A stretch of DNA of 35,162 bases from Bacteroidota bacterium (GTDB taxonomy: Bacteria; Bacteroidota; Bacteroidia; UBA7662; CANHCV01): the NCBI GenBank assembly GCA_947459245.1, contig CANHCV010000020.1, forward strand, positions 1-35,162, written 5' to 3'. The translations under genes and the position numbers were made by a program. Of this stretch, positions 12,996-34,576 are shown in pieces; the first letter of the stretch is position 1, and the number at the start of each line of letters is the position of its first letter. A model generated the notes under the pieces. That model saw nothing but the letters and a program-made list of their open reading frames with translations. It did no database searches and had not been told where the DNA came from.

Positions 12996-13026
12996 ACAAA
13001 AAAGAATAATAACCGATGTTATCAAC

Positions 13027-14308: not shown

Positions 14309-15115
14309 TTATTTAAAAAGTAATTTTAGGTTCAGTTGATAATTATAAAAGAATTTTTGGCTTGCAATGGGTGGGTTGGAGTCATAAAGGCCATCTGAAA
14401 TCAAACCAATTCCAAAGTGGTCATTGAATTGATAGGAAATAGTAGAACTACTCATGTTTCTGATTGATTTTAAACTTGGAATTGCTTGAAAAGAAGATTG
14501 AAATGATAAATTCCAATGGTTGGTTTGACGGCTGGCCTTAAATCCCAATATTCCCCTGATGGTTTTTTTTACAACGTTCTGATCCGACTTTGTCTTGTCC
14601 CACAATTGAGTGTTCCATTGTTCATATTCGTAGCCGATCCCTGCATTGATTGCCAAAGAGTTGCTATCAGCATTTAAAAAATCGTAGTTGATGCAATTCT
14701 GTGAAAAATAACGATCTTTCAAGCCTCTAGCAACATCCCATTGGTTGCCAACAATTACATCGTAATTCATTTGGTCGTTTTGGTATTTGCGGTATCGAAG
14801 TGTATGTTGCCCGGAGTTGATTGCGGTTACCTGTGATAACTTCGTTCGATCAATCCGAGATTGAATTAAAATCCAGTTTTCTTTTTTAAGTTTCAAGCCT
14901 AAATCCACCAAGTAATCAAAATTCAAAACGTTGTTTTTGTACCGGTCTGATTCCAATGAAAACTGAATGGAAGAATATTTCTTAAAGGATTTCAAGGAAT
15001 CTAAATTGAGATCCAATTGGTCCAACAAGAGTATTTGCCCTTTCGAGATATTGGAAAAAAATGTAACGAAGATCAAAACGATGAAAAGCCGATATTTTTG
15101 AACTTTCTTGAGCAC
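14309..15115 (-). CDS. DUF481-like outer-membrane beta-barrel protein
   Basis: A 268-residue exported protein. A hydrophobic signal peptide (RLFIVLIFVTFFSNISKGQ) is followed by repeated amphipathic strands such as YSSIQFSLESDRYKNNVLNF, HTLRYRKYQNDQMNYDVIVG, LAINAGIGYEYEQWNTQLW and WNLSFQSSFQAIP, ending in a barrel strand NYQLNLKLLFK. This matches DUF481-type proteins (salt-induced outer-membrane protein type), though conservation is loose. I set the start at the GTG at 15115; the frame continues upstream, but a perfect minus-strand -7 element at 15134-15141 would put transcription start at about 15128. The gene is divergent from the nine-gene operon. Confidence 0.65.
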   Translation of the reverse strand: MLKKVQKYRLFIVLIFVTFFSNISKGQILLLDQLDLNLDSLKSFKKYSSIQFSLESDRYKNNVLNFDYLVDLGLKLKKENWILIQSRIDRTKLSQVTAINSGQHTLRYRKYQNDQMNYDVIVGNQWDVARGLKDRYFSQNCINYDFLNADSNSLAINAGIGYEYEQWNTQLWDKTKSDQNVVKKTIRGILGFKASRQTNHWNLSFQSSFQAIPSLKSIRNMSSSTISYQFNDHFGIGLISDGLYDSNPPIASQKFFYNYQLNLKLLFK

Positions 15116-15133
15116 ATTTTTCTTTTTAACGCT

Positions 15134-15141
15134 CAAATCTA
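15134..15141 (-). promoter_or_regulatory. -7 promoter element of the DUF481-like gene
   Basis: The minus strand reads TAGATTTG, a perfect TAnnTTTG, about 20 bases upstream of the GTG start at 15115. It is back to back with the plus-strand element at 15154-15161. Confidence 0.55.
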
Positions 15142-15153
15142 CATAAAAAGTTT

Positions 15154-17346: not shown

Positions 17347-18596
17347 TGAGTTTTTTTAAAACCATATTATTCAGTACCCTTGGCATTGAGCCTGTTCAAT
17401 TCGAACAGGCCACCCAAGCCGAGCAAAGATTGCTAAAAATTTTGCACGTCTTGATATGGATTGGTTTTGTGGTTTGTTATATTTCTGCATCACATTATTT
17501 GTGGATGATTGCGAATCAGTCCATCGGTTTTTCCTTGTTAGGAGGAATGATTCTTGGATTTATTTTCATCTCCTTAATTCGAATAGCCCTACTAACGTTC
17601 ATTCCTGGAATTTACAACGAAGAGGAAGGAAATGTTTTCTCCCAAGTTGCTCCGTTACCCGGTAGCACAGCCCCCACCGGTTGGCTAGGAAAATTGAAAT
17701 CTGTCTTTCAAAAAGGAGGCGGGCTTCTTAAAGGAATCAATTATCCCAAATTCATTTCCTACGTTTTCAGATTTTCTTTCATCTCCTTAATTGGAATCGT
17801 CGTTTCATTGGGAATCGGTTGCCTAATTTTTAAGAAGAAATTGGACCAATCGGTTGAAACTTATCGGGAGAAAATTGAAGCCAATTTTTCCAAGTATGAA
17901 AGTCAAAAAAGAGCATCCAATTTAGAATCTCTTCAAAAGGAAATCAAAAATTCTGAAAACAAAATTAAAATTTCTCAAAACAACTTGATTCAATGGAAAC
18001 AAGCGTGGGAAACAGCTCCAACCGATTCTTTGAGATTTGTTGCCGAAGTTCAATGGAACATCTCAAAAAGGGAAGATTCCATTCAGCTGGGTCAATTGAA
18101 ATCATTATTGGAGGAGTTTCAGACTTTGAATGCAAAAGAAATAGAAATAGAGCAAGAACAAATTGCGGCATACCGTGAAAAAATTGATAAAGAGAATTTT
18201 CCCGTGGTTAGAATTACCGAGGCCTTTCAAATGGGATCGGTAAAACTGTTGGTTTTCATCTTTACCCTATTTTTTATTATTCAATCTGCTTTCCTGGTTT
18301 ATTTGAAAACCAAATCGAGTTTCATTTATTTAGAATTGGTTAATAAAAGTTACAGAGAACAGGTTTCTGACGACTTTGCTCTTTTGAAGGATTTTGTCAA
18401 TGGAAAAGAAGTAAGAGAGAAATATTTGGGATTTCAAGCTTCCAATTCTTACGGTTTGAAAAGCATACAGCATTTGCAAGATGAGATCCAGTTTTATCCT
18501 GAATTTCGAGATCCACCTTTCAATTTTATCCCAATTCAAGAGCCCAAAATTGTGAAAAAAGGAGATATGTTTGATTTTTTAAATGGGCAGGTTTAA
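17346..18596 (+). CDS. DUF4407-like membrane protein (second, divergent paralogue)
   Basis: A 416-residue protein with the same topology as its upstream neighbour: helices at about 32-53, 60-85, 140-162 and 298-320. A coiled coil of about 120 residues (165-285) lies between the third and fourth helices, with ESLQKEIKNSENKIKISQNN typical of it. A soluble linker follows helix 2 and a soluble tail follows helix 4 (about 95 residues). The DUF4407 hallmark sequences are not conserved, so I infer distant paralogy from topology and position, not from clear sequence identity. It starts on the last base of the DUF4407 stop codon and ends three bases before the OmpA gene. Confidence 0.75.
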   Translation: MSFFKTILFSTLGIEPVQFEQATQAEQRLLKILHVLIWIGFVVCYISASHYLWMIANQSIGFSLLGGMILGFIFISLIRIALLTFIPGIYNEEEGNVFSQVAPLPGSTAPTGWLGKLKSVFQKGGGLLKGINYPKFISYVFRFSFISLIGIVVSLGIGCLIFKKKLDQSVETYREKIEANFSKYESQKRASNLESLQKEIKNSENKIKISQNNLIQWKQAWETAPTDSLRFVAEVQWNISKREDSIQLGQLKSLLEEFQTLNAKEIEIEQEQIAAYREKIDKENFPVVRITEAFQMGSVKLLVFIFTLFFIIQSAFLVYLKTKSSFIYLELVNKSYREQVSDDFALLKDFVNGKEVREKYLGFQASNSYGLKSIQHLQDEIQFYPEFRDPPFNFIPIQEPKIVKKGDMFDFLNGQV

Positions 18597-18599
18597 TCT

Positions 18600-19844
18600 A
18601 TGGGAAAAAAAGTAGTTTACGGATTTTATAAAGGGGAAATTGATGCTCAGTTTTCGGCAGACCCTAAAAATGATTTGGGCGCCAATCAACGCTTAATTGA
18701 TTTAGAAAACCGTGTTGTTTTCAATAAGGTAGAAGAAATTTCGGAATTTGATTACGAGCAGCATCTTCAATCTATAGAATACAGAAAGTGTTGGATGGTA
18801 AAGAAAGGTTATCCCATCGAATTAACCTTTTTGAATGACTTACAAGACCCTATTCGTCTTACTTCTGAGTTAATTGCCATTCGTCAGAGTAATGACGTTC
18901 CTGAAGCATACATGAATGCTCCCATCATTCGTACAGGAAGGTTAAACGGGCAGGCAGTGTTCAAAGGGTATCGATTGGTAGACGATCCTACATTTGTTCC
19001 GCCCGTTGTTCCCCCTACAGTTTGCAAGCACCAATACGGAGATAAATCTTTCTGCACTTCAAATGCTCTACCCAACTCTCCCTTTTGTTCCAATCATGGA
19101 GGTTGCGCCAACCGCGTTTTTGGAGATGAAAAATCGGGATGTTTTAGCCTTTGGGGGATATTGCCGCGATTAGGAATTGGAAATTTACCGTTCCCCGGAA
19201 TGAGCAATGGCGGTTGTTTTCAATGGGGGTGTGGTTGTTTGATTCCGCTTCTTTTATTATTGCTTTTGTTGCCTTTCTTGCTTTGCCTGTTCAAACGAGA
19301 TTGCAACATGCTGGATAAATTGACGCATCGCGATTCTTTGAGGGACACGGTTGAAGTAGTGAAATACGATACCGTTAAGGTCGTTGAAAAGGAAACAGTA
19401 ACCAAAATTGATACGCTAAGGATGACCGATACTCTCGAACAAACAGAGTCCATACCCGATATCATTACGTTGCCCAACGTGAATTTTGAAACCAATAAGG
19501 CCATTCTTAAAGAAGGTTCATTCAAGAGTTTGGATCAATTGGCTGAATTGATGAAACGTAATCCGGAAATGACCATTGAAATTGTTGGATATACGGATAG
19601 TGTTGGAAATGATCAAAAAAATCAAAAACTTTCTGAGGATCGTGCAGAAGCCATCAAGAAATACCTTGTAGATAAAGGAGTTGGCGATGAACGAATTCAA
19701 GCTAGGGGAGAAGGTGAAAATGATCCTATTGGAGATAATAGAACGGAGGAAGGAAGAATGCTAAACCGAAGGGTAGAAGTAACAGTCAAGAATAAAGGAA
19801 AAAATGTTCAGAAAAAAGAAATAAGACAAGAGAATGCCAAGTAG
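18600..19844 (+). CDS. Membrane-anchored OmpA-domain protein with cytoplasmic domain and Cys-rich segment
   Basis: A 414-residue protein in three parts. The N-terminal soluble domain (about 1-135) is beta-rich (KKVVYGFYKGEIDAQFSA, GRLNGQAVFKGYRLVD). A Cys-rich segment has Cys142, 152, 163, 169, 181, 206, 211 and 213, possibly metal-binding. One membrane helix follows at about 213-231 (a run of Leu). The C-terminal peptidoglycan-binding OmpA domain (about 286-397) shows ITLPNVNFETNKAIL, EIVGYTDSVGN, LSEDRAEAIKKYL and GRMLNRRVEV. There is no cleavable signal peptide, so the N-terminus should be cytoplasmic and OmpA periplasmic, as in MotB-type stator proteins. Its last 11 bases overlap the next gene. 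The OmpA part lies in an 823-bp tandem duplication. Confidence 0.88.
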   Translation: MGKKVVYGFYKGEIDAQFSADPKNDLGANQRLIDLENRVVFNKVEEISEFDYEQHLQSIEYRKCWMVKKGYPIELTFLNDLQDPIRLTSELIAIRQSNDVPEAYMNAPIIRTGRLNGQAVFKGYRLVDDPTFVPPVVPPTVCKHQYGDKSFCTSNALPNSPFCSNHGGCANRVFGDEKSGCFSLWGILPRLGIGNLPFPGMSNGGCFQWGCGCLIPLLLLLLLLPFLLCLFKRDCNMLDKLTHRDSLRDTVEVVKYDTVKVVEKETVTKIDTLRMTDTLEQTESIPDIITLPNVNFETNKAILKEGSFKSLDQLAELMKRNPEMTIEIVGYTDSVGNDQKNQKLSEDRAEAIKKYLVDKGVGDERIQARGEGENDPIGDNRTEEGRMLNRRVEVTVKNKGKNVQKKEIRQENAK

Positions 19845-19953
19845 TTTTTTTGAAATTTCTGGAAAGTTTGAAGGATTCTTTTCTCAGAAAAAGTTTTCGG
19901 AAACTCTTGCGCCTTCCCATTTATTTTTCATGGAATGGGAGAACTTTATGATT
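19440..19953 (+). repeat. Tandem duplication, left copy (823-bp period)
   Basis: This segment covers the OmpA domain of the 414-residue protein and the first 40 codons of the next gene. It recurs at 20263-20776 with a constant offset of 823 bases. The last 116 bases (19838-19953) differ from the right copy at four positions only; the OmpA part is more diverged but remains collinear without net indels. Confidence 0.85.
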
Positions 19954-20667
19954 CATGGAAATCCTCAAACAAGTGTCATTCCAATGGAAAAATTCAATGA
20001 GTTCGTGAATAAGAAAATTTTCGATGTTCAGCAAGAGGGCCAATCAACGTTATTTTTAAAAATTAAAAATAACAAAATGGCAAAAAATCTCCTTTTGGGA
20101 TTTCTTATTTTAATATTTTTTACATCATGTGAAGGTTCTTGGAATGAAGAAAAAAAAATAGATTTAAATAAAAAAGAGGCAGTAATCCCTCATGGTGATT
20201 TAATAAAGTTGGGAACTGAAAAAACAAAACCTAATGCAATTCAAAATTCCGATACCCTCAATCAGACTCAATCCATTCCAGATATCATTACCCTTCCCAA
20301 CGTGAATTTCGAAAACAATAAGGCAATTCTTAAAGAAGGTTCATTCCAAAGTTTGGATCTATTGGCAGATTTGATGATACGGAACGGGGAAATGAACATT
20401 GAAATTTCGGGGCATACCGATAATGTTGAAAAACCAGAAACCAACAGGAAATTATCCCAAGATCGAGCTGATGCCATTAAAAAATATTTGGAGAATAAAG
20501 GAGTTGAAGCGAATAGAATTGTAGCAAAAGGAAGGGGAGCTGAAGTTCCGATTGGGGATAATAATACTGAAGAAGGAAGAATGTTGAATCAAAGAATAGA
20601 AGTTAGTGTTAAAAATAATCGTGAGAATTTTCAAAAAAAGGAATTAAAGCAGTGTGATGTCAAGTAG
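19834..20667 (+). CDS. Chimeric OmpA-domain protein made by tandem duplication (or OmpA lipoprotein starting at 20077)
   Basis: The 277-residue frame has two origins. Residues 1-75 copy the start of the 146-residue protein encoded next (FFEISGKFEGFFSQKKFSE is identical). From residue 82 there is a lipoprotein signal MAKNLLLGFLILIFFTSC, a linker and a complete OmpA domain (DIITLPNVNFENNKAIL, EISGHTDNVE, GRMLNQRIEV). If read from 19834 it is a cytoplasmic stub, a membrane helix and periplasmic OmpA, the same topology as its upstream paralogue. If read from the ATG at 20077 it is a 196-residue OmpA lipoprotein. The 11-base overlap with the upstream stop favours at least some translation from 19834. 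Its own stop overlaps the next start by 11 bases. Confidence 0.8.
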   Translation: MPSSFFEISGKFEGFFSQKKFSETLAPSHLFFMEWENFMIHGNPQTSVIPMEKFNEFVNKKIFDVQQEGQSTLFLKIKNNKMAKNLLLGFLILIFFTSCEGSWNEEKKIDLNKKEAVIPHGDLIKLGTEKTKPNAIQNSDTLNQTQSIPDIITLPNVNFENNKAILKEGSFQSLDLLADLMIRNGEMNIEISGHTDNVEKPETNRKLSQDRADAIKKYLENKGVEANRIVAKGRGAEVPIGDNNTEEGRMLNQRIEVSVKNNRENFQKKELKQCDVK

Positions 20668-20776
20668 TTTTTTTGAAATTTCCGGAAAGTTTGAAGGATT
20701 CTTTTCTCAGAAAAAGTTTTCGGAAACCTTTGCGCCTTCCCATTTATTTTTCATGGAGTGGGAGAACTTTATGATT
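20263..20776 (+). repeat. Tandem duplication, right copy (823-bp period)
   Basis: Right copy of the segment at 19440-19953. It carries the OmpA domain of the chimeric gene and the first 40 codons of the 146-residue gene, and keeps the same 11-base stop/start overlap (ATG at 20657, TAG at 20665). Confidence 0.85.
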
Positions 20777-21094
20777 TTACCCGAGTTCCAATCGGTAGCC
20801 ATTGCTGCAGATAAGTTCAAATCAATGGCTGAAAATAAAATTTTTGAGGTGCAGGCCGAGATGCCTACCACAGGATTTTTATCAATGCCCATAACCTTGA
20901 AGGTTTTCAAATGGAAACAAGAGGAATTTAAAAATTTCGAATTCAAATCATCAAACGTATGGAATTCGATTTCCATCAAAACTAAAGTTACGGGCTCCTT
21001 TTCGGGAATTTACCAAATTGGAACCGATGAATCGGAAAATAAAATTGTTCAACCCGAAATGACTCACTACCCCATTTTCCCATTACAAGCATAA
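20657..21094 (+). CDS. Soluble protein with the operon's GKFEG domain
   Basis: A 145-residue protein without membrane helices. It begins SSSFFEISGKFEGFFSQKKF. The same opening occurs in the chimeric OmpA protein (almost identical), and a diverged form, HIHIQGKFEGYFRP, opens the 548-residue transglutaminase-like protein, so one domain is used three times in the operon. The domain is beta-rich with conserved aromatic residues (FMEWENFMI here, FNELDWRFFAV in the large protein). I do not recognise it as a named family. The start is the ATG at 20657, one codon after an in-frame GTG, because the first copy of the duplication uses the equivalent ATG. Confidence 0.78.
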   Translation: MSSSFFEISGKFEGFFSQKKFSETFAPSHLFFMEWENFMILPEFQSVAIAADKFKSMAENKIFEVQAEMPTTGFLSMPITLKVFKWKQEEFKNFEFKSSNVWNSISIKTKVTGSFSGIYQIGTDESENKIVQPEMTHYPIFPLQA

Positions 21095-21095
21095 C

Positions 21096-22742
21096 ATGGC
21101 GTTAGAACACATACATATTCAAGGAAAATTTGAAGGTTATTTCCGACCCGATAATGCCAAGCCAGTACTTGGTGCCACGTTCAATGAATTGGATTGGAGG
21201 TTTTTCGCGGTAGATGAATATCAAATCATACCAGAATATTATCCGGATGAACAAAAAGTTCATGATTTTCACTATTCCTCCAAAATTTCCGATGTAAGGA
21301 TTCGCCTTCCATTTGCCATGGAGGAGTTTGAAGGAGAATTGATCAATGTTGTAGTCAGAAATTTAACCTTGCACGGTGCCATGGACACTCCCGAGGGGAA
21401 GTTGGTCAAGGTTACCGGAGATGTTTGGGGTAGTGCCATTAAAAAGGTAAAACCCGTTAAACCCATTGTTGTAAAAGACAATAGTTTCAAGGGGCTTTTT
21501 ATTCGGGGTTGGAAAGGGGTTCCCGACTTTTTCTCATCGAACAACAATCAAATTAATTTCGGGGGGAATGCCTTGGGTTCTTGGTCGCGATGGTTACCCA
21601 ATTTGCTTTGGTTGTTGCTTGGGATTTTCTTCCTTTTTAAACTTCCTCTACTTGGAATTATTCTATTAGTGGCCTGGGCACTCAATAAATTTGGATTGTT
21701 AGGTGGAACTGGACTCAATACCTCAGCTCAATCTTCAGGTTGTTTAGGAAATATTTGGAACATCATATTAGTAGCCTGGTCATTTTGGTTGGCGAAACAG
21801 TTTTGGGCAGCCCACGATTGGTGGTGGCTTTTCGTACTTGTTGGCGGATTTTTGTTTTGGATATTCAGCAAAAGCGGTCGTGCAGCAAATTGGATGCGAT
21901 GGGTAGGTATGATTGCCTTCCCGCTCTTATTGCTGTATTTAACCTTTAAAGATGTACCCATCGAATTGCCCAAACCAACACAAGACGATGGAAAAGTGAA
22001 ACTACAAATTGAACCTATCCGCGATTCCCTTGGAGTAGATTCGTCTTACAACCATACCATCGATTGGAAATCGTTCAATAACAAACAATATCAAGCTTCG
22101 TACTCCACTTTTGCTCGGGTTTTCCAACAGAGTTTTGGAAACGGTGCCAGAATTTCCAGGTATGCAGCTGAAAATTCTCAATCTTCCTATGAAGCTTATG
22201 GAAAGATTTATCAATCCATGGCCAATTACGATAGTCCTAAAATTGATTCTTTAATGAATGTCTTGAATGAGAAGGGAGAAGGATTAAATGCGGTTGATAA
22301 AGCTGAAATGGTCATTACCTTCATCCAAGAAATTCCGTATGTTTTGGTTCATGATTTGAGTTGTAAAGATTTTCTAAGAGAAAACAGATCCAACTCTTTT
22401 GTGGTTCAATACCATGCCAAAGGGGATCCTTGTCTTGCCAACGTACCTGCCGGGGTGCAATCTCCTTACAGCTTTGCGCACAATCTAAAAGGCGATTGCG
22501 ACACTCGATCTTTATTGGGTTACCTCATTCTTAAAAAAATGGGTATTCCTGCATCCGTATGGGTCAGTGAGGCTTACGGTCACTCTATTTTAGGAGTTGG
22601 CTTACCAGCGGGAACTTCCAATTCTAAAACTTATCGTGGCATTAAATATTACGGAACTGAACTAACCGCAAAAGGATTTAGAATCGGTCAAGTTCATTCA
22701 AGTAATGGAGATATGGATAACTGGGAAATTGTACTAGATTAA
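21096..22742 (+). CDS. Membrane transglutaminase-like protein
   Basis: A 548-residue protein. Residues 1-120 form the GKFEG domain shared with two other operon proteins. Residues 165-285 hold about five membrane helices (for example LPNLLWLLLGIFFLFKLPLL and WWWLFVLVGGFLFWIF). Residues about 330-548 form a transglutaminase-like domain with the full triad: Cys468 in LKGDCDTRSLLGYL, His496 in SEAYGHSILGVGLP and Glu522 in YYGTELTAKGFRIG. Such domains act as cysteine proteases, peptide amidases or crosslinkers. The signal-less N-terminus suggests a cytoplasmic first domain, and an odd number of helices would put the catalytic domain in the periplasm; the helix count is not certain. It starts one base after the preceding gene. 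Confidence 0.85.
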   Translation: MALEHIHIQGKFEGYFRPDNAKPVLGATFNELDWRFFAVDEYQIIPEYYPDEQKVHDFHYSSKISDVRIRLPFAMEEFEGELINVVVRNLTLHGAMDTPEGKLVKVTGDVWGSAIKKVKPVKPIVVKDNSFKGLFIRGWKGVPDFFSSNNNQINFGGNALGSWSRWLPNLLWLLLGIFFLFKLPLLGIILLVAWALNKFGLLGGTGLNTSAQSSGCLGNIWNIILVAWSFWLAKQFWAAHDWWWLFVLVGGFLFWIFSKSGRAANWMRWVGMIAFPLLLLYLTFKDVPIELPKPTQDDGKVKLQIEPIRDSLGVDSSYNHTIDWKSFNNKQYQASYSTFARVFQQSFGNGARISRYAAENSQSSYEAYGKIYQSMANYDSPKIDSLMNVLNEKGEGLNAVDKAEMVITFIQEIPYVLVHDLSCKDFLRENRSNSFVVQYHAKGDPCLANVPAGVQSPYSFAHNLKGDCDTRSLLGYLILKKMGIPASVWVSEAYGHSILGVGLPAGTSNSKTYRGIKYYGTELTAKGFRIGQVHSSNGDMDNWEIVLD

Positions 22743-22758
22743 ATAAAAAAAACAGAAT

Positions 22759-23256
22759 ATGATGAACTTCATTCAATTGGCGCTTGCCTTTTCCGTAGGA
22801 ATCGCCGCCTTATGGATTGTAAACTCCATTTTTCAATCCATCATGAACAAGAAAATTGGGATTGATGAGCACAATACGGCTACAGCAACTTTTCAAGCGG
22901 GGATTGTTTTGGCAACAACCGTAATTCTTTCCAGCACCATTGGGCCAGGAATGAATGCTTTCCGATTCCTAACCCAAGGACAAATGGATTTGATGAACAT
23001 TGCTTGGGCTTTGGCCTTTAACCTCTTCTTCATTTTAATTGGGTTGATCATGACTTTTTTGGTCATTGCGGCAGGCATCATTTCCTTTTTTACCATTACC
23101 CACATCAATGAATGGGAAGCTTTGAAAAACAACAACATCCCGGTAGCTATTTTAACGGCAACCGTAGTGGTGGGGCTTTCCTTTTTATTGAAAGATTTTG
23201 TGGGCCATTTTTGCGAGGCACTGATTCCTTATCCTGAGGTACTTCAGGTGAATTGA
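22759..23256 (+). CDS. DUF350-like membrane protein
   Basis: A 165-residue protein made almost wholly of membrane helices (about 4-24, 45-65, 80-112 and 125-147). Two internal repeats can be seen, KKIGIDEHNTATATFQAGIV and INEWEALKNNNIPVAILTATV, each placing an acidic/Asn pair just before a small-residue helix. That is the pattern of DUF350 (YjfL-like) proteins, whose function is unknown but which often sit beside PspA-like, ATP-grasp and transglutaminase-type genes. The start may be at 22759 or the adjacent ATG at 22762. It is the last clear gene of the operon. The assignment rests on pattern and context. Confidence 0.68.
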   Translation: MMNFIQLALAFSVGIAALWIVNSIFQSIMNKKIGIDEHNTATATFQAGIVLATTVILSSTIGPGMNAFRFLTQGQMDLMNIAWALAFNLFFILIGLIMTFLVIAAGIISFFTITHINEWEALKNNNIPVAILTATVVVGLSFLLKDFVGHFCEALIPYPEVLQVN

Positions 23257-23415: not shown

Positions 23416-23438
23416 AAATTAAATTTAATTAAAAAATT

Positions 23439-24101: not shown

Positions 24102-24193
24102 GAATAAATTAAATAATTAAAAAAAAGACAAAAATTGAAATTCCTTTCGATTGGAATTTAGATATTCCAGCAGTAACTGAATTTACCTTTCAA

Positions 24194-25445: not shown

Positions 25446-25508
25446 TAACCAGCCCATAACAGCGTGCAAGCGCCATAACTCTAACGCAGGCGCAACACCG
25501 GGTTATAA
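25440..25508. repeat. 69-bp imperfect palindrome joining two convergent stop codons
   Basis: Both ends are TTATAA (25440-25445 and 25503-25508). Inside are AACC/GGTT (25447-25450 with 25501-25504), GTG/CAC and GCGCC/GGCGC (25464-25474 with 25489-25498) around a 14-base loop. The left TTATAA holds the stop of the HhH-GPD-like gene, the right one the stop of the minus-strand 37-residue ORF. The element is GC-rich in an AT-rich stretch. It may be a shared terminator structure or a recombination site; the integron attC consensus GTTRRRY is not met. Confidence 0.55.
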
Positions 25509-25616
25509 TCTCCTGTACGAAAACCGGTATTTTTGTTTGGCTGCCTTTTCCCGAGAACGGGCCAGGTCTTGAATGGTTTTTCCCAGGGCCTTGGGTAATT
25601 GATTGCTTATTTGCAT
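25503..25616 (-). CDS. Possible 37-residue basic ORF at the end of the NACHT operon
   Basis: An ATG-to-TAA frame 20 bases after the stop of the NACHT gene. It encodes MQISNQLPKALGKTIQDLAR followed by SREKAAKQKYRFSYRRL, a basic amphipathic helix. It may be a genuine small gene, or the remnant of a longer gene cut where the palindrome begins, since its stop lies in the palindrome end. Spacing and codon use fit the operon. No family is recognised. Confidence 0.4.
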   Translation of the reverse strand: MQISNQLPKALGKTIQDLARSREKAAKQKYRFSYRRL

Positions 25617-25636
25617 GGTGAATATTTTTGATGTGA

Positions 25637-28600
25637 TTAGTTTAATTTTTCGAGATACCACAATACATATTTGGTGTAAGAGTGTTCTTCTCCCAATTTC
25701 TTCTTAAAAATTTGATAGGCTAATTGAAAAAAATCATTTGATTTGGCTAATTCACCTTTGTCTAACCAAAGTAAACCCATGTTGTATAAGGAAATACCTG
25801 TTACTGGATGATTTTCTCCGTGGATGTGAAGATTAATTTGAAGCGATTTTTCATAGTATTGAATGGCTTGGTCGTATTCCCCTATTTCCTTCCAAGCAGA
25901 ACCCAAGTTAATGTAAGCAGAGGCTGTTACTGGGTGATTTTCACCTTGGAATTGAAGATAAATTTGGAGCGATTTTTCTAAGTATTGAATGGCTTGGTCG
26001 TATTCCCCTTGTTCATTCCAAAGAGTACCCAAGTTATTGTATAAATAGGCTAGTGATGAGTGATTTTCACCATAGGAATTTAGTCTAATTTGTAATGATT
26101 TTTCATAGTAATGGATGGCTTGGTCGTAATCCTTTTTTGAACCCCAATCCATACCCAAGTAATGGTATGTATCGGCTGTTGCTGGATGATTTTCTCCGTG
26201 GAATTTAAGATTAATTTGGAGCGATTTTTCATGGTATTGGATAGCTTGGTCGTATTCCCCTTTTTCTTTCCAAACGGAGCCTAATTTATTATAGGAAGTG
26301 GCTGTTGATGGGTGATTTTCTCCATGGAAATCAAGATTAATCTGAAGAGATATTTCATAGTATTGGGTGGCTTGGTCGTATTCCGCTATTGCATTCAATA
26401 CAGTACCCAATTTAATGCAGTAATTGGCTAATGATGGGTGATTTTTACCATAGGAATTTAGTCTAATTTGAAATGATTTTTCATAATAATGGATGGCTTG
26501 ATCATATTTGCCAAAATAATCATTTATATCTCCTAGCAAGAGTAAAGTATCAGCATCGTCATCGAATTTTTCCCCCGCAACTGTCAGTTGGGGCAAATGG
26601 GGTTCAAACTTTTCTTTCTCGATCAATTGCCCCGCTTCAATTCCCAACCATAGCGATTCTTTGGTTTCAAATTTCAAGAGGGGAAGCAGGGTTTCAAGAA
26701 ATTCTTTTCTTCTTGTTGCTTCCACCAATTCTTCCATTTTCTGGTTCAATAACCACAAAACCTTCCAATCGTGATCGGTAGGGTTGGCTAATACGGTTGT
26801 TAAGGTTTCGGCTGCTCCGTGGGTTTTTAGGTAAACCAAAAGGGGGTGAACACAAACCGGATGATTTTCTTCCTCGGCGTCTATCAATTCCGTTACCAAG
26901 GATAAATCGCCCAATTGGGCATTCAAGCAGAGGAACTCTTCCAACCCCGCCACCCGCAATTTGTTTTTTGCTTTCACCAATTCCATGGCCCAAGTCAAAT
27001 TCACCTTTTCAGGTTGTTCTTGCAAATGGAGCCCCAACAAATAAAAAAGAGCTCCTTCCACGGTAAATCCAATGCAGGCATTCAAATCTTTGGTGTACCT
27101 GCTGATCCATCCCAAATTTTTCAAACGGGGATAAGCCGCATTGATGCGATCGGTGGTTAAAAATGGAGCAAGCTCGGGGCGGTTGAAAGCATCTTCCAGC
27201 AACAATTCGTTTTCCCCAATTTCCCATAGGGTAGTAGCCAATAATTTCATGAAGGATTGTTCCTCTTCCGAAAACGTAGCTAACCAATCTTTCCAAACAT
27301 GCAAGGGGTGTTTCCCTTTTTTCGGGAGGTTTTTTCCGTGATACGTTTCTAAAAATAGGCGCAATACCAATGGATTGCTGATGGTTTGGTACAACCCACG
27401 GTCGTAAACCGCCAAATCATCGAACGAAAACAGGGGTTTAAATCTATTTTTATCTTTCTGTTGGTAATTTCCCCAACATTCCTTCATTTCTTCCATGGAC
27501 AGGGCTGTAAGCCAATGGGTGAAAGCTGAAAGACCCTCATTCTGTTCTTTTTTCTCACCGTACATCCAATTTTCTTGGGAGGATAACAGGGGATATCGGT
27601 TAATATCGGCACTGGAATTGGCACGGCAAGTCATCACAAATTTGATGCATCCCGGTTCAAAACTCGAGCAGATTTCTCCAACTTCCTGCCAAATTTCTTC
27701 TGCTTTGGAGGCTTCGTTTAGCCCATCCAACAAAATGAAAAAGGGGTGGGATTGGGTGCCGGCAAGGGAAGGATAGGCCTTCAATCCTAAAGATTCATCC
27801 AAATTTAATAAATAAGCCAATTGTTGGTGGAGGGTTGGCTTTTCCATTCTGGAAGTGCGAATGAGCAAACTTGCACAATTTCGTTCGGCGTACTGCTGCT
27901 GCATTTCCACCAATAAATTGGTTTTACCACTTCCGGCTTCTGCTGCAATAAAAAGAATGTTCGCTCTGGATCCAATCCATTCTTTGAGCTTCAATTCCAT
28001 TTCTTGCCGGTGAACATACACCCCGGGAATTACTTTTTTCTCGGTACAAAGCGTCTCATAAATCAACTTATTTTCCGCCGCAATGCGTTGAAGAAAAACC
28101 TCTCTGGTGAAATCCTTCGGTTGAAAATGAATTTCGGTTTGTTTGTCGCGAATCAAAAGGTTAAGGCGCTCCAATATTTTTCCGGAGGTTCGCTTTTCGG
28201 TTCCTTCCGGGCTAAAAAACTTGATGGTTTTTCCCGTATAGGATTCGTAAGTAAAAATTTGTTCTTTATCGGCTTTATCCAAGGAAACCTCGCCCGGAAC
28301 AATATAAAAGGGAAGGATTTCGAAAATTTTCCCCTCTTTATTTTCCATCCAAACACTGCTTGGACCCGGAGCTCGGTGTTCCACCGTTTTAATTTCGGAA
28401 GAATGCAGTTGAACCATTTCCCCATGTTCGTTTTTATACATCAGATAGTCCTGGGGGAAGGTCATTTCTTGCAACAAGGATCGGAAAATAGGGTAGTACT
28501 CTTTCCAAAGCTCCGAAGCAGGGCCATCGTCGAGGGTGAGCCCGTGGCCGAGGTACCGATTTCTAAAATTGATGAGCATACCAATGCCCGTGGCTTCTTG

Positions 28601-29128
28601 CTTTTGAATCAATAAATCGCCATGGGCATCCAGAATTTCAATTTCCCCTTTGTAAAGTTTTCTTCGATTTCCTGTTTCAATTTTTTCGTAATAGGTTACC
28701 AATTCGGGGCAAAAAAACGGGTGCTGGTGGTGTTGAAGGAACTTAATCGTTTCCCGAATGTATTGGTTCCAGGTTCCAAACGAGGGCTCTGCCAACGATT
28801 GTTGGAACAAGGCCACCATGTTTTTATCCTTGAGGGTGCTATTGAAAAACTCGGAAGCGGTGAGCAAGCCGAGGTACTTCAAATAATTGAGAAAGGTGTC
28901 TTTGAAAAGATTCATTTTCTTCCACGGATTTTGCTCTTCCAAGGTGCGCTGCAAGGGGTAGGCAATCACGTAAGGAAGAGCAGCAAGTAAATGTTTTTCT
29001 TCCTCGTTGAGGTTGGAAATGGCCGTTAATGGTTCGTCGCAGAACGGACATTCCATGGCTGCCGGATATATTTTCCCTTTTTTGGATTCCGGCGCGCAGC
29101 AATCGGGAGAGGTGCAATGAAAACTCAT
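25637..29128 (-). CDS. STAND/NACHT NTPase with N-terminal HEPN-like domain and C-terminal TPR array
   Basis: A 1163-residue, apparently soluble protein. Residues 1-30 have a Cys-rich start (Cys5, Cys10, Cys11, then CPFC at 27-30), possibly zinc-binding. Residues 40-225 form a helical domain with NFRNRYLGHG: Arg189-Asn190 and His195 fit the HEPN RNase motif RX4-6H. A beta-rich linker follows. The NACHT core has Walker A AEAGSGKT (396-403), the signature FFILLDGLNEAS (Walker B, about 463-474), FVMTCRAN (about 497-504) and NPLVLRLF (585-592). The C-terminus, about 880-1163, is a TPR array of 42-residue units. NACHT/STAND proteins with TPR sensors act in phage defence and programmed death by sensing a ligand and oligomerising. 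That role is inferred here. It is fourth in a compact operon. Confidence 0.85.
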   Translation of the reverse strand: MSFHCTSPDCCAPESKKGKIYPAAMECPFCDEPLTAISNLNEEEKHLLAALPYVIAYPLQRTLEEQNPWKKMNLFKDTFLNYLKYLGLLTASEFFNSTLKDKNMVALFQQSLAEPSFGTWNQYIRETIKFLQHHQHPFFCPELVTYYEKIETGNRRKLYKGEIEILDAHGDLLIQKQEATGIGMLINFRNRYLGHGLTLDDGPASELWKEYYPIFRSLLQEMTFPQDYLMYKNEHGEMVQLHSSEIKTVEHRAPGPSSVWMENKEGKIFEILPFYIVPGEVSLDKADKEQIFTYESYTGKTIKFFSPEGTEKRTSGKILERLNLLIRDKQTEIHFQPKDFTREVFLQRIAAENKLIYETLCTEKKVIPGVYVHRQEMELKLKEWIGSRANILFIAAEAGSGKTNLLVEMQQQYAERNCASLLIRTSRMEKPTLHQQLAYLLNLDESLGLKAYPSLAGTQSHPFFILLDGLNEASKAEEIWQEVGEICSSFEPGCIKFVMTCRANSSADINRYPLLSSQENWMYGEKKEQNEGLSAFTHWLTALSMEEMKECWGNYQQKDKNRFKPLFSFDDLAVYDRGLYQTISNPLVLRLFLETYHGKNLPKKGKHPLHVWKDWLATFSEEEQSFMKLLATTLWEIGENELLLEDAFNRPELAPFLTTDRINAAYPRLKNLGWISRYTKDLNACIGFTVEGALFYLLGLHLQEQPEKVNLTWAMELVKAKNKLRVAGLEEFLCLNAQLGDLSLVTELIDAEEENHPVCVHPLLVYLKTHGAAETLTTVLANPTDHDWKVLWLLNQKMEELVEATRRKEFLETLLPLLKFETKESLWLGIEAGQLIEKEKFEPHLPQLTVAGEKFDDDADTLLLLGDINDYFGKYDQAIHYYEKSFQIRLNSYGKNHPSLANYCIKLGTVLNAIAEYDQATQYYEISLQINLDFHGENHPSTATSYNKLGSVWKEKGEYDQAIQYHEKSLQINLKFHGENHPATADTYHYLGMDWGSKKDYDQAIHYYEKSLQIRLNSYGENHSSLAYLYNNLGTLWNEQGEYDQAIQYLEKSLQIYLQFQGENHPVTASAYINLGSAWKEIGEYDQAIQYYEKSLQINLHIHGENHPVTGISLYNMGLLWLDKGELAKSNDFFQLAYQIFKKKLGEEHSYTKYVLWYLEKLN
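25690..26540 (-). repeat. In-gene TPR array, 126-bp units
   Basis: At least six units of 42 codons repeat with exact 126-base spacing. The GENHP turn recurs near 25806, 25931, 26057, 26183, 26309 and 26435. The helix B core GEYDQAIQYYEKSLQI is nearly unchanged between units, also at DNA level. This is kinesin-light-chain-type TPR. Confidence 0.9.
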
Positions 29129-29144
29129 CGGTTCTTTGGTGTTA

Positions 29145-29453
29145 TTACAATGGTTTGTGGGTACTCCACAGTTTTAAAAGGTAATCGGTTATCGAGGCCT
29201 CTTTGGTGATGTTTCCGGATTTTACATCGTTGATCAATTGAAGGCCGATGTGGGCCATGCTTCCCCAAATTCCCAGTACGCCGCTGTGCAACCAACCGTT
29301 GATGAGGCGGTAGGTTTTTACCACGGGTTGTTCATTCACGGTGGTTAAAAATTCATGCTTCAAATTTTTCTCCAGCCCCTCGCAACGTTCTTGCTGCCAT
29401 TCAATATGGGTTTGAAGGTCGGAATACGACCGAATTTGTCCTTTACTTTTCAT
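29145..29453 (-). CDS. Small soluble protein of the NACHT operon
   Basis: A 102-residue protein with no signal peptide; the mildly hydrophobic stretch GWLHSGVLGIWGSMAHIGL (about 53-71) is not clearly a membrane helix. It is mostly helical, with a charged N-terminal half (YSDLQTHIEWQQERCEGLEK). No family is recognised. Its start overlaps the end of the Holin-X-like gene by 11 bases, and its stop is 16 bases before the NACHT gene, so it must belong to this operon. Confidence 0.72.
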   Translation of the reverse strand: MKSKGQIRSYSDLQTHIEWQQERCEGLEKNLKHEFLTTVNEQPVVKTYRLINGWLHSGVLGIWGSMAHIGLQLINDVKSGNITKEASITDYLLKLWSTHKPL

Positions 29454-29775
29454 CTTGGAACATGGATTGGGTGAAAACGTTTTGAAGGGTATGGATAACT
29501 CTTTTTTTGAATGCGATGATCAAAAGAAAAATTAAAAAGAGAAATCCAGCAATGCAGAAGAACCCCATCCATGGGTTTTCCCAAAGTTCTCCAAGCCAAA
29601 GGGCCAAACCCCAACCAGCAAATAGAAATGCTAAAAGGAAAAGTAGGGCTCGAAGGAAAAACTGACTGACCTGGGCCGAAAGTTGAATGCCTTTTTGAGC
29701 GGCCTTAAGTTTGGCCAATTCGATGCGTTGTTCGATAACCTCTTGAGAGAGTTGAAGGAGTTCTTTAGCTTCCAT
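29443..29775 (-). CDS. Holin-X/DUF1469-like small membrane protein
   Basis: A 110-residue protein. An N-terminal amphipathic helix (ELLQLSQEVIEQRIELAKLK) is followed by two membrane helices at about 41-65 and 69-90 (FFLRALLFLLAFLFAGWGLA, WMGFFCIAGFLFLIFLLIIA) and a short basic tail. This is the layout of the Holin-X/DUF1469 (YqjE-like) superfamily: helix, membrane hairpin, cytoplasmic ends. Despite the name most members are not phage lysis proteins. It overlaps the large membrane protein gene by 11 bases and the next gene by 11 bases, and probably assembles with the large protein. Confidence 0.68.
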   Translation of the reverse strand: MEAKELLQLSQEVIEQRIELAKLKAAQKGIQLSAQVSQFFLRALLFLLAFLFAGWGLALWLGELWENPWMGFFCIAGFLFLIFLLIIAFKKRVIHTLQNVFTQSMFQDEK

Positions 29776-32700
29776 GTGCTATTTTTTCGAGTAAAACATG
29801 ATTATTCCAAAATTCTTCGTTGTTGATTCTGTCTGATTCCTTTTGGTGTTGAGTAGGGTAGGGTGGGGCGTAAATTCCCGGAAAGACGGTACTAATTCTC
29901 CAATTCTTAAAGTGGGCATCATAGTACAAAACAATTTGGAATTCATTCGTTAAGGGCAATTCCTCCACCATCACTTTTAGTCCGTGGGTCGTTGAAATCA
30001 GTTGAGATTCATCGTAGAGGCTCTTTGGACTCAATCCATTCTCACCTAGTAGAGACTTTTGAGCTTCGGGAATGACGATGCTTATTTCAAATTTCAACAA
30101 ACCGTGTTCGGTACTTTTTCGAACTTTTGCTACCTGTCCTTTGAGCTCTCCTAAGGAAATGTTTTGACTTTCTAAATTTTCAACTTGTTCCTCGGTTAAT
30201 GGATCGAAAACTTGGTGAATTTTTTGAACCAAATGGATGGAATCAGTCCAAAAGTGGTTTTTGAATTTAGATTTGACTTTCGAAAAGCGTTTAAGTACTT
30301 CTTTTTCATCCAGAAGAATACGATCTGAGAAGTGCTTCATTTTCGGATGAGTGCTGAAATGATGCGTAACATGTTTAGCTTCCATCAAATGCTGGTAAAA
30401 AGTAGCTTTTTGCTGGAATTTGGCAGATGTTTCGGGATGGTTAGGCCTCATCAATTCAACCAGATCCATCATGGCTTTCCAAGCTAAGGATTCACTATTG
30501 TTGTTATCAACCTGATAGGCAAGTCCGAAACTTACTTCATACCATTTGAAGGCATCTTGAAGGTCTTCTATTTTATTTGATTTTTTATTGATGATAGAAC
30601 CTCCGATATAACTAGAACTGAGGATACAACCTATTTTATCATTGGCCAATTTGTTGATTTGAAAGGATATTATGCCTATTTTTTGACTTGAATCGAAATC
30701 TTTGATGTAAGAAAAGTAACGGCAGAGGTAATTCATGGTGTAGCAAATACCTCTTCGGTCTCGAACCACATCGGGATTAAAAAGCACTTCGTTAAATTTT
30801 GGAGTAAAAAGATCTTCTTTCTTCAATCCATTTGGAAAAACATTGCTTTCCAAATTCATATCCAACTCAAGGCGCTGCAATAACCCGTTTAGTACGCATC
30901 TTCCCAGGCTTTCCAAATCCTTAATTTCAGCATTTTGCAACAAGCTAAAAGAAAAGTTTGAAATGTCTGTTTTGGAAGATAAAGGACCAAAAACGCGATC
31001 GTTTAAGAACGAGCCATAATAATCATTGAGGATTTCTTTTCGAATGCTCCATTCCGGGGAGTATTGGCTAAGGTTTATTGAAACAGGTTTCAATAAATTT
31101 TGGAAACTTCCATCGATTTCTTCCAAGATGTTTTTATTGAAATTATTGTGGCCCACCTCAGCTTGTTTGGAGGGAATTAACTTCAATCGATAGAACTCTA
31201 TTCGAGTTAGGTCTAAAGAGGAAGGATTTAAACTTTTTAAGTGTTCTAAAATTTGATGACCTATTTGAGCATTTTTGGGATTGTATAGAATAAAACACGC
31301 CTTCACTTGGTTAAATAACATTTGAAGGTACACTTCGATTGGAAGGAGGTCCTTCAAGTTAGGTTCTTTATCCAACAAATCGAAGGTGGCCTCCATTTTG
31401 GTATTGTCGTTGCTCTCTACATCAATCAAGAATTTTTGAGCCAAAGCTCGTACGTCTCTTTCTTTAAGTTTTTCTAAGTTTTTAGCTTTTCGGTTGATGA
31501 GCATGCAATCCTCAATGCAAAGGGTTGCTGCATCAAATTTTGCTATTTGATGTTCGGAAAATAACTGTGCGCCCCAGAAATTGATTTCCCAGGCTAAGTC
31601 TGGAAACTCTTGGAACGTTTTTGCAGAACGATGGCACAACAACTCAATTTCGTCGATGCTGATTCTTCCTGCAGTGTAATCGTCCTTGACAGATTTTAAG
31701 TAGCTAGCGGTATTCTCAATCGCTCCGAAAAAGGAAACGTACAAGCGATAATATTCTTTCCCTAATTGTGAAATTATATCGTCGCTGGAGTTTTCAGTTT
31801 CTTTAAATCCATTCACAAATTCCAAATCGGAAAAAGCAAATAAATCGTAGTTTTCTCCACTTTTTTTGTCGTAAATGATGTGGTTCAATTCGGCTTCTCT
31901 AAGTAAGAAGAGCAATTGAATGCGGTCCATGTTGCAGAATTTTTCAAGCATTCTTACCCGAAAGGTACCGGTAGAATCGGAGGCATAAGCGGCGGCAATC
32001 AACACCCGTTTTACCCCTTCATTTTTGCTTAAAAACTCATCAACTTCAAAGGGATAATCCACCTCTGGCAGTTTTTTCAATTGGTGAAATTCCACCTTGG
32101 GGAAGATGCTATTCGGATCTTCCTCTATTTTCCCGTCGTCCACCATTTTTTGGAAAATGATTTCCATGGTTTCTGGCGACACATCTTTCTTTTCTCGGCT
32201 AAAGGTTGATGCCAGCTCCAACTTTGCTTGAATGGGCAATTCTTTTTTCCTTACGAAATCCCAGGCCAAATTTTCGAATTCCACATCAAATGGCGTAAGC
32301 ATACTTAAATTGGCCTGACAAGTTCGAATAATGGCATCTTTCTCACTGAATGAACTGTATTCGCAAAATACAAAAACCGTTGGGAATGACTTTATTCCTT
32401 GGTCTGTTTTTGAAAGAATGGCATTCAATAATTCCAATTCCTGTTTTTGAATCAGGTTGATGTGGTCGAAAACCACTACCGAAGGGTTATCGGTAAGCCA
32501 TTTAACGATTTCTTGGGATAACTCTGGCAGATGCCGAGGCTTGGGCTCACTCTCATCCATCAAGAAATTTCCAACTGCCTCGGAAATCGATCCCAATATT
32601 TTACCCAATAAATTTCCCGCTTTTTTTGCTGTTTCCGAAACATCATTGAATCTTTTGAACGAGAAAATCGACTCAAAACCTTTTGCGAAAGAATAATAAT

Positions 32701-34576
32701 GCACCAATTCACTTCCTTCTGCTTGCTTTTCAGAGAAACTGATGTGGATGAAATGATTCACTTCTGTAGGAAGCAAGTACTTCTCCACCAATTTTCTTCC
32801 GTTTAATCCGCGTTTCCCCTGAATCCAAAAGACCTGATTTCTCGAATCGTCTTTTTTGGAATGAACACAATATCTCGCTAAATCTCCCTCTTCTTCTTCC
32901 CAAATGATTTCAAATTTCTCAATGCCTTTGGGTTGAATTTCATCGGTTTTGCCCTGATAAGGAATGAATTTGCGTTTTCTCAATCGTTCAATTCCCAACA
33001 ACAACAATTCTAAACCAACCAATACCGGAAGTTGACTGCTGAAAAATTCACTCAACAGCGGGGCATCAACGGCAACCGAAGTGAAATTGAAGATGTACAA
33101 CACGTACATTAATATGAAAATGCCAATGCCCCCAAAAATGGAAAACTTTAAAATCGAATCTACCTTTTGGGGGAAGTTCGCCACCTTTGACCAATTGAGT
33201 GCAATGAAGGTGGCAATACTCATGGAATACAACGTGGTTGCCGCCACCTGTTCCCAAGGAGCATTCACCCCGTAGCGAACTGGCAAGTAATAATAAACCA
33301 CCGCCGGAAACGTGAGCAAGGAACCCGAAATCCATGAAAAAATACCCGAAAACCGATCTAAATTGGATCGGAAACTTCCTACCCCTCGATCCATTTTGCC
33401 AATGACAATGTAGCTGAGAAACAAAGGCAATAAGAACAAAGAAATGGCAAAAGTGAATTGCCAAACCATCACTTCATCCGCAGCATAATATTCATCGGGA
33501 ATGGGATTGGCAATTTCTCCAATTCCCAATTCCATGAACAAAACATGGGCAATGATTCCGGTAAAGGCACTCAAGGCAGCGATAAAATAATTGGTGCGTT
33601 GTTTCTTTTCCTTCTCTCCCTCCCAAAAATAAATGCACAAGCCAATGAACAACCCCAACAGTAAAAAGATGACAACATTGGGAATTTTGAAAGTAATCAT
33701 TTGATTGAACAACTTGTTCTTGGTGAAATACTCCACGTAAACATTGTCAATCACCTTTTTTTCTGCCCGCCCCCAAATATCTAAGCGAAGACCAAAGTAC
33801 ATCAACCCGTCCAAAGAATCGTTAACGGTTAGGTGAATGAACTGCAATTTTTGGGTATGAAAAAAATCGCAAATCGTGGCCAATTTGGCTGTGTCGGCAA
33901 TGATGGCTTCTACATTTATGACCGAATCTCCCAGGATTTGAGTCAATTCGTGGTCAGAAATGGTATAAATTTTGGTTTCCGAGTTCAATTTTTCCACCAC
34001 CAATTCCTCTACGTTGGGGTCTTGGGGATGCGTAAGGACCAACCCAAAATTTGCCCGTTCTTTGAGCATTACGTTTTGGTCGGAGGCTTTCAAGTCGAGA
34101 ATTTGATCGATCGCTTTCAAAGATCCTTGCAAACGAACCTCCTCCAACTCGCAATCTTCCTCTTTGTAGGATTCGTCGTAACCCATCATTTCGGTGTAGA
34201 GCGGAATTTGGGTAGATAGCCGCTGGTGACAAACCGGCTCAATCGAATCCACCAAATCAATCAACGTTTGGGCTTGGAGCCGGTAACGATTTTTCGATGC
34301 TTCCGGAAGTTGCTCACTACCGTTCAAAGAATCCAAAACTTCCTGCGCAAGTTCCCGGGAACGGGCAAATTCCGGCCACGTATTCTTGCGCGTTCGAGCG
34401 TACCAATAATACGTGTTGGCATGATTCAATTTGCTGGCAATGGTTTCCGACTTCCGATTGAAATACGTTTCAGTTTCTTCAATATTGGTTACGTTGTACC
34501 GATGCAATTGAATGATCCCCAAGGTTGCAATCATTCCGGCAATCACCGTAAGAATCAACTTTTTGCTTAACTTCAT
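29765..34576 (-). CDS. Giant membrane protein with sensor domain and cytoplasmic P-loop-like domain
   Basis: A 1603-residue protein from the ATG at 34576 (an in-frame upstream codon at 34627 is less likely, because the signal anchor MKLSKKLILTVIAGMIA starts here). Helix 1 is at 7-24 and an extracytoplasmic domain at about 25-298. Seven further helices lie between about 299 and 530. A cytoplasmic domain follows with P-loop-like GKRGLNGRKLV (about 587-597), Walker-B-like SVVVFDHINL (about 699-708, Asp704) and a sensor-like strand TVFVFCEYSS (about 733-742). The phosphate loop departs from GxxxxGK[ST], so ATPase activity is doubtful. The last 800 residues are helical, TPR-like, with a beta-rich end (YYDAHFKNWRISTVFPG). 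I do not recognise the family. It is first of a four- or five-gene operon with a NACHT protein. Confidence 0.75.
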   Translation of the reverse strand: MKLSKKLILTVIAGMIATLGIIQLHRYNVTNIEETETYFNRKSETIASKLNHANTYYWYARTRKNTWPEFARSRELAQEVLDSLNGSEQLPEASKNRYRLQAQTLIDLVDSIEPVCHQRLSTQIPLYTEMMGYDESYKEEDCELEEVRLQGSLKAIDQILDLKASDQNVMLKERANFGLVLTHPQDPNVEELVVEKLNSETKIYTISDHELTQILGDSVINVEAIIADTAKLATICDFFHTQKLQFIHLTVNDSLDGLMYFGLRLDIWGRAEKKVIDNVYVEYFTKNKLFNQMITFKIPNVVIFLLLGLFIGLCIYFWEGEKEKKQRTNYFIAALSAFTGIIAHVLFMELGIGEIANPIPDEYYAADEVMVWQFTFAISLFLLPLFLSYIVIGKMDRGVGSFRSNLDRFSGIFSWISGSLLTFPAVVYYYLPVRYGVNAPWEQVAATTLYSMSIATFIALNWSKVANFPQKVDSILKFSIFGGIGIFILMYVLYIFNFTSVAVDAPLLSEFFSSQLPVLVGLELLLLGIERLRKRKFIPYQGKTDEIQPKGIEKFEIIWEEEEGDLARYCVHSKKDDSRNQVFWIQGKRGLNGRKLVEKYLLPTEVNHFIHISFSEKQAEGSELVHYYSFAKGFESIFSFKRFNDVSETAKKAGNLLGKILGSISEAVGNFLMDESEPKPRHLPELSQEIVKWLTDNPSVVVFDHINLIQKQELELLNAILSKTDQGIKSFPTVFVFCEYSSFSEKDAIIRTCQANLSMLTPFDVEFENLAWDFVRKKELPIQAKLELASTFSREKKDVSPETMEIIFQKMVDDGKIEEDPNSIFPKVEFHQLKKLPEVDYPFEVDEFLSKNEGVKRVLIAAAYASDSTGTFRVRMLEKFCNMDRIQLLFLLREAELNHIIYDKKSGENYDLFAFSDLEFVNGFKETENSSDDIISQLGKEYYRLYVSFFGAIENTASYLKSVKDDYTAGRISIDEIELLCHRSAKTFQEFPDLAWEINFWGAQLFSEHQIAKFDAATLCIEDCMLINRKAKNLEKLKERDVRALAQKFLIDVESNDNTKMEATFDLLDKEPNLKDLLPIEVYLQMLFNQVKACFILYNPKNAQIGHQILEHLKSLNPSSLDLTRIEFYRLKLIPSKQAEVGHNNFNKNILEEIDGSFQNLLKPVSINLSQYSPEWSIRKEILNDYYGSFLNDRVFGPLSSKTDISNFSFSLLQNAEIKDLESLGRCVLNGLLQRLELDMNLESNVFPNGLKKEDLFTPKFNEVLFNPDVVRDRRGICYTMNYLCRYFSYIKDFDSSQKIGIISFQINKLANDKIGCILSSSYIGGSIINKKSNKIEDLQDAFKWYEVSFGLAYQVDNNNSESLAWKAMMDLVELMRPNHPETSAKFQQKATFYQHLMEAKHVTHHFSTHPKMKHFSDRILLDEKEVLKRFSKVKSKFKNHFWTDSIHLVQKIHQVFDPLTEEQVENLESQNISLGELKGQVAKVRKSTEHGLLKFEISIVIPEAQKSLLGENGLSPKSLYDESQLISTTHGLKVMVEELPLTNEFQIVLYYDAHFKNWRISTVFPGIYAPPYPTQHQKESDRINNEEFWNNHVLLEKIAHGS

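Follow-up and report, generated by a model that had tools for sequence, protein, structure and literature searches.

The window analysed here, 35,162 nucleotides that make up the whole of contig C20 of a Bacteroidota-type draft genome (2.35 Mb, 99.96% complete), probably carries an undescribed membrane-connected anti-virus system. A defence role is fairly probable from the sequence, and the balance of judgement leans slightly towards an island-borne NLR-like abortive-infection module that may be coupled to the cell envelope. Coupling is proposed because relatives of the C-terminal domain of a giant membrane protein in the window (C-dom) are linked to HEPN-STAND genes in other loci, and because of domain fusion. 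The sequence-only reading had likewise proposed a membrane-coupled version of a receptor-based defence operon; HEPN-NACHT genes that repeatedly lie near members of the C-dom family lend this partial support, but the coupling itself is read from linkage and fusion.

The accessory island and its four-gene operon

The left edge of the island (Table 1) is where nucleotide synteny with two congeners breaks off, and GC content drops at the island start. In one congener, a tRNA-Lys gene and an amidohydrolase gene come next after the shared left flank; in the window's genome, contig C4 opens with these two genes, and the right edge is placed near its tRNA-Lys gene. At least 22 kb, starting at approximately 13.0 kb and continuing to the end of the contig, has been inserted beside tRNA-Lys and is absent from the congener, and synteny suggests that the island connects contigs C20 and C4. 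The accessory location, established by the synteny break and the tRNA-Lys site, counts in support of the defence reading. Another congener (G002) has a tyrosine integrase after the same left flank (L074:5136-6398), suggestive of an insertion hotspot at tRNA-Lys.

Table 1. Features of the window (positions are those of the 35,162-nucleotide stretch)
Feature	Position	Strand	Basis
Left island edge, end of synteny with two congeners	12997..13010		Nucleotide synteny
Outer-membrane-type protein (DUF481, 9.9e-5)	14309..15148	-	Homologous to gene adjoining C-dom genes elsewhere
Envelope cluster DUF4407–OmpA–DUF350	16006..23256	+	Profiles; same cluster in other loci
DUF4407	16006-17346	+	
DUF4407-like	17346-18596	+	
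OmpA genes	18600-19844; 19834-20667	+	
Cluster gene	20654-21094	+	
1-TM protein	21096-22742	+	
DUF350	22759-23256	+	
HEPN-NACHT-TPR protein P0002, 1163 aa	25637..29128	-	ORF, domain profiles, homologue alignment
P0002 TPR region, seven ~42-aa units	25640..26566	-	TPR_12 profile, DNA repeat array
P0002 NACHT NTPase, Walker A K402, Walker B D468	27029..28021	-	Profile and alignment
P0002 Zn-ribbon-like N-terminus and putative HEPN region with R189...H195	28454..29128	-	Motif, homologue alignment
Small orphan protein P0004, 102 aa	29145..29453	-	ORF; sits where YtxH-HolinX operons have third gene
Holin-X, two-helix membrane protein, 110 aa	29443..29775	-	PF07332 6.1e-10; paralogue on contig C74
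Giant membrane protein P0001, 1603 aa from ATG	29765..34576	-	ORF, hydropathy; orphan except C-dom
Giant C-dom, residues 1400-1603	29768..30379	-	Homology to standalone 160-200-aa proteins
Giant putative degenerate P-loop/STAND-like region, residues ~560-900	31877..32899	-	Motifs by eye; hhalign without support
Giant transmembrane cluster, residues 289-529	32990..33712	-	Hydropathy
Second, divergent HEPN-STAND-TPR gene, N-terminal 146 aa, cut by contig end	34725..35162	+	Homology

The envelope cluster of the island is found beside CorA-like/C-dom genes or HEPN-STAND genes in other loci (L044, L045, L065, L067 and L107/L108); in the window, L065 and L107/L108, the linked genes include HEPN-STAND genes. 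In genome G121, a relative of the second receptor and a complete DUF4407-OmpA-DUF350 cluster are 4 kb apart, which provides a further independent link between the envelope cluster and HEPN-STAND receptors. Assignment of the cluster to Zorya was rejected: the OmpA domain alone matches ZorB (1e-10), and no match to ZorA was found among the five envelope proteins scanned. The products of the second OmpA gene and the cluster gene that follows it are alike in their first ~77 residues (E 6e-28), evidence of a local duplication. Two DUF805 RNA motifs (RF03081, 69 bits each; 23353-23422 and 24039-24108, plus strand) each lie a short way upstream of a 137-aa orphan gene (23439-23852 and 24194-24607); a search of the literature on this motif found no paper.

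The four minus-strand genes that follow, read from 34576 to 25637, have junctions consisting of 10-11 base overlaps or a 16-base gap. The stop codon of the giant gene falls inside the start of the Holin-X gene (ATGGAAGCTAA), the stop codon of the Holin-X gene falls inside the start of the small gene (ATGAAAAGTAA), and 16 bases separate the small gene from the HEPN-NACHT-TPR gene; thus, the overlaps arrange the four genes as one transcription unit. Promoter and terminator scans of the locus gave signals at or below chance level, and no operon boundary was obtained from them. The tight arrangement that the sequence-only reading had described (overlap or at most 16 bases) agrees with the ORFs and junctions. 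The span that it gave, 25503-34576, contains the genes, but its 25503 edge lies about 130 bases beyond the last stop codon, and its extent, right as to the four genes, missed the envelope cluster at 16-23 kb, the DUF481-type gene at 14.3 kb and the second HEPN-STAND gene from 34725 onwards.

As a four-gene system taken literally, the operon is not supported: the set co-occurs nowhere else searched, an outcome that the earlier interpretation had itself named as counting against it. A conserved four-part machine is disfavoured because the giant and the 102-aa protein are orphans and Holin-X has an operon paralogue elsewhere. This paralogue (contig C74 of the same genome) belongs to a YtxH–Holin-X–small-gene operon, which a congener and another family of the order also retain. 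Similar to such YtxH-HolinX (PF07332) operons, the window has a Holin-X gene followed by a small gene; unlike them, it has no YtxH, and P0004 was rejected as a homologue of the usual third gene, to which it has no detectable homology. No homologue of the 102-aa protein was found in 295 class genomes. Because its paralogue occurs in an ordinary YtxH operon, Holin-X is regarded as an accessory membrane protein and not as evidence for a phage-style holin; a phage lysis holin was also rejected for want of any phage or endolysin context or PHROG match. The membrane hairpin protein proposed earlier is upheld by its profile, but not as part of a conserved four-gene system.

The HEPN-NACHT-TPR receptor and the divergence of its sensor

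P0002 begins with a cysteine-rich, Zn-ribbon-like N-terminus, followed by a HEPN signature, a NACHT domain and TPR units, the order of effector, NTPase and repeats that had been claimed for a NACHT/STAND receptor, with profiles backing the NACHT and TPR parts. The NACHT assignment is supported by NPHP3_N (1.4e-5), the PADLOC Avs2 model (7.5e-7) and a solved Avs2 structure (9o4e, 1.6e-6), and TPR_12 of Pfam matches six stretches of the protein (8e-73), the TPR units being encoded by a 126-base tandem array (25798-26508). K402 is located within GSGKT, and R189 and H195 within RNRYLGH. The Walker A lysine and HEPN histidine are at the positions predicted earlier, and R189, N190, G194, H195, G399-S400-G401-K402-T403 and D468 are invariant among six aligned homologues.

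The protein thus has the intact Walker A/B NTPase, C-terminal repeat sensor and accessory, variable locus of bNACHT/STAND proteins, and its R189-N-x4-H195, kept in homologues, conforms to the R-x4-6-H motif of HEPN RNases. No HEPN profile of Pfam or the PDB matched P0002, and the conserved RN-x4-H motif is the sole basis on which it is putatively labelled HEPN. Classification as Avs2 (AVAST type 2) was rejected, the match being limited to ~105-120 residues of the NTPase. No relatives of P0002 were found on plasmids, phages or viral contigs. G121 has a HEPN-NACHT-TPR gene (58% identity) with no C-dom, CorA-like gene or giant nearby, and because the receptor is found there without these partners, it can probably work alone.

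Compared with its two closest relatives, P0002 is 57-58% identical in the HEPN-STAND half versus 27-36% in the TPR half. The second receptor of the window has an N-terminus 72% identical to that of a 1112-aa HEPN-NACHT-TPR protein, in a family that reaches 1702 aa; among its full-length relatives (L105, L106 and L107), residues 1-640 are 91-97% identical between genomes and the TPR halves 25-70% identical, a pattern that, by analogy, resembles sensor replacement on a constant effector-NTPase core. Rapid replacement of the sensor on such a core is typical of immune receptors and is established for STAND families; the fast divergence of the TPR regions is accordingly taken as a sign of immune function. 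Split receptors were observed in L061/G178 and L047, where a HEPN-HEPN-NACHT gene precedes tandem TPR genes with a post-NACHT domain. At L017:8350-14000 with L040:3-2526, and at L047:1-7322, two or three such overlapping tandem TPR genes follow the HEPN-HEPN-NACHT gene, each starting with the post-NACHT domain, as if several sensors served one effector.

The giant, the C-dom family and linkage to HEPN-STAND genes

The giant P0001, for which an alternative, longer GTG start at 34627 is possible, consists of an N-terminal transmembrane segment, a ~265-residue ectodomain, a transmembrane cluster and a large cytoplasmic part comprising a degenerate P-loop-like region, a helical region and C-dom. 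Seven hydropathy peaks exceed the threshold (residues 4-22, 289-307, 330-348, 374-392, 472-490, 487-505 and 511-529), and the eight helices previously counted would be plausible. The degenerate P-loop is visible by eye in the motifs GKRGLNGRK (587) and VVVFDH (700), but profile comparison gave it no support (hhalign probability 0.6%); with no Pfam match either, identification as a NACHT/STAND NTPase was rejected. Residues 1-1390 have no relative in plasmids, phages, viral contigs, 85k genome contigs or 395 class genomes, and searches of these collections with the giant matched through C-dom alone. Derivation of the giant from a CorA-like protein was rejected, as the two have no similarity, and the giant does not match the PADLOC CorA models. 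Its possible role is suggested by one domain and by operon position.

C-dom, the last ~200 residues of the giant, matches a family of standalone 160-200-aa proteins. A scan of 85k species genomes, made with C-dom alone, identified 27 loci, mostly in Bacteroidota with a few in others. In most loci of sufficient length, the C-dom gene comes immediately after a CorA-like gene for a ~440-aa protein with two C-terminal membrane helices. In L049 (861-2738), the CorA-like protein and C-dom are fused in one 625-aa protein, just as C-dom is fused to the giant in the window. PADLOC CorA models match 19 of the 20 members of the CorA-like family (best 1.6e-14), and CorA structures top the fold search with its model (pLDDT 87), none of them significantly; the CorA-like protein is probably a relative of the type III CRISPR CorA effector. 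Type III CRISPR itself was rejected for the related loci, a crude GGDD scan for cas10 among ORFs over 500 aa in the C-dom loci having found none.

The C-dom of the giant (AlphaFold2 pLDDT 81) matched no known fold in a fold search and no known family by similarity, and it lacks an RNG motif common to its relatives. A BECR-type RNase, suspected from TxFPG-like motifs, was rejected because neither fold nor profile comparisons supported it. No member of the CorA-like family was found in the window's genome, in searches that detected the positive controls; the giant therefore apparently stands in for the CorA-like protein.

The 27 C-dom loci were chosen without regard to HEPN genes, with P0002-type genes defined by E < 1e-100 and the distance limit set at 10 kb. 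Within this distance of C-dom, P0002-type HEPN-NACHT genes are present in four of the 27 loci (L047, L061, L065 and L066) and SAM-HEPN-NACHT-TPR genes in L057 and L063, which brings the loci with any HEPN-STAND gene to six of 27. The HEPN-NACHT gene of L066 begins 73 bases after the C-dom gene on the same strand, and in L065, where the DUF4407 envelope cluster is also present, the two genes are convergent and ~10 bases apart. A gene this rare would be expected far less often than in four of 27 loci: among 395 class genomes, P0002-type genes are present in three, C-dom in seven and both in two (hypergeometric p = 8e-4 counting the window's own genome; p = 0.03 excluding it). Many C-dom loci show no HEPN gene in view, some of these being short contigs.

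It is rather unlikely that defence is confined to the HEPN-NACHT-TPR gene, inserted behind an unrelated envelope operon of giant, Holin-X and 102-aa protein, together with the truncated second receptor gene. Such an arrangement would accord with the solitary receptor of G121, the housekeeping-type paralogue of Holin-X, the orphan status of the giant and the uniqueness of the four-gene set, but not with the joint occurrence of C-dom and HEPN-STAND genes in six of 27 other loci, adjacent in two, nor with the location of the giant itself inside the accessory island.

Several observations weigh against the preferred reading of an envelope-coupled defence module: the orphan state of the giant outside C-dom, the solitary receptor of G121, the missing RNG motif, the HEPN label resting on a motif, and C-dom loci with other partners or no HEPN gene in view. 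In L053, L054 and L059, TPR-SpoIIE phosphatase genes stand before C-dom, at the position that HEPN-STAND genes hold elsewhere; the CorA-like gene is present in L053 and L054, and L053 also encodes an nSTAND1-WD40 protein. Since C-dom is found beside TPR-SpoIIE genes too, several types of sensor appear to share the CorA-like/C-dom pair as their membrane arm. These three loci, and the fact that envelope proteins (DUF481, DUF4407, OmpA and DUF350) make up most of the conserved neighbours, would also suit an envelope-stress or surface-structure system in which the HEPN-STAND proteins are stress regulators and not antiviral receptors; this is improbable given an accessory island at a tRNA gene with an integrase in a congener, TPR sensors that change rapidly and a relation to CRISPR CorA effectors. 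HEPN RNases also serve as toxins in toxin-antitoxin pairs and the island looks mobile, but a selfish or inter-bacterial toxin cassette acting to stabilise the island is very improbable, as no antitoxin-like gene was identified and the large STAND receptor, with its TPR array, is better suited to sensing than to addiction.

Proposed mechanism and comparison with known systems

By analogy with STAND and HEPN families, the fast-evolving TPR half of P0002 may recognise an invader product or an infected state, upon which the NACHT domain would bind ATP and oligomerise, bringing HEPN domains together to cut RNA and stop growth. The co-transcribed giant, with C-dom fused at its C-terminus, may hold the place of the CorA-like and C-dom proteins of other loci and anchor or relay the response at the membrane. 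Holin-X and the 102-aa protein would be locally recruited membrane accessories, and the second HEPN-STAND receptor and the DUF4407-OmpA-DUF350 cluster are part of the same island. The anti-phage role, RNA cleavage and functional substitution by the giant for CorA-like and C-dom proteins are predicted from family membership and gene context, and it is only tentatively suggested that the sensing of infection triggers both RNA cleavage and membrane action.

Type III CRISPR is the setting in which CorA-type effectors are known to serve defence; a nucleotide second messenger presumably opens them there. If relatives of these effectors are tied to NLR-like HEPN-STAND receptors, bacterial NLRs would be able to act through the membrane in addition to a nuclease, C-dom would be a marker domain for finding such systems, and with the giant the same membrane step would have been solved a second time, independently.

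No published description of this gene order was found in the literature searched, in keeping with the sequence-only reading. The accessible portions of the work on bNACHT proteins, DefensePredictor and STAND conflict systems (PMC12169576, PMC13092281, PMC7159879, PMC8195603) describe the parts and not, as far as those portions extend, their association, most subscription papers lying outside the search. Known defence models match the NTPase, TPR, CorA-like and OmpA parts only. The STAND/SAM/TPR conflict systems (Kaur et al. 2020, 2021; PMC7159879, PMC8195603) share the STAND NTPase, TPR, HEPN, kinases and inactive STAND paralogues; in the accessible text of those papers, no mention was found of the C-dom/CorA-like pair, the DUF4407-OmpA-DUF350 cluster or the giant.

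Similar to the bNACHT/STAND proteins bNACHT25 (available text of PMC12169576) and Avs2, P0002 has an N-terminal effector, a central NACHT domain and a C-terminal sensor. Avs2 is the closest to the NTPase profile of P0002 among solved structures, although only the NTPase matches Avs2 models. The effector of bNACHT25 is described in the same text as a PD-(D/E)XK DNase, whereas P0002 has a Zn-ribbon and a putative HEPN effector and a linked membrane partner with C-dom. In type III CRISPR, CorA has an adjacent or fused partner, which is NrN, DEDD or SAM-AMP lyase (PMC10600005 and PMC11229360, in the parts accessible), and the CorA-like protein of the related loci has an adjacent or fused partner in the same manner as CorA with NrN. 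In the related loci, however, the partner is C-dom, and STAND receptors are present instead of a Cas10-like GGDD protein; in the window, the giant takes the place of CorA. NLR-like STAND defence is itself known, but there is a real chance that the locus represents a distinct membrane-coupled class.
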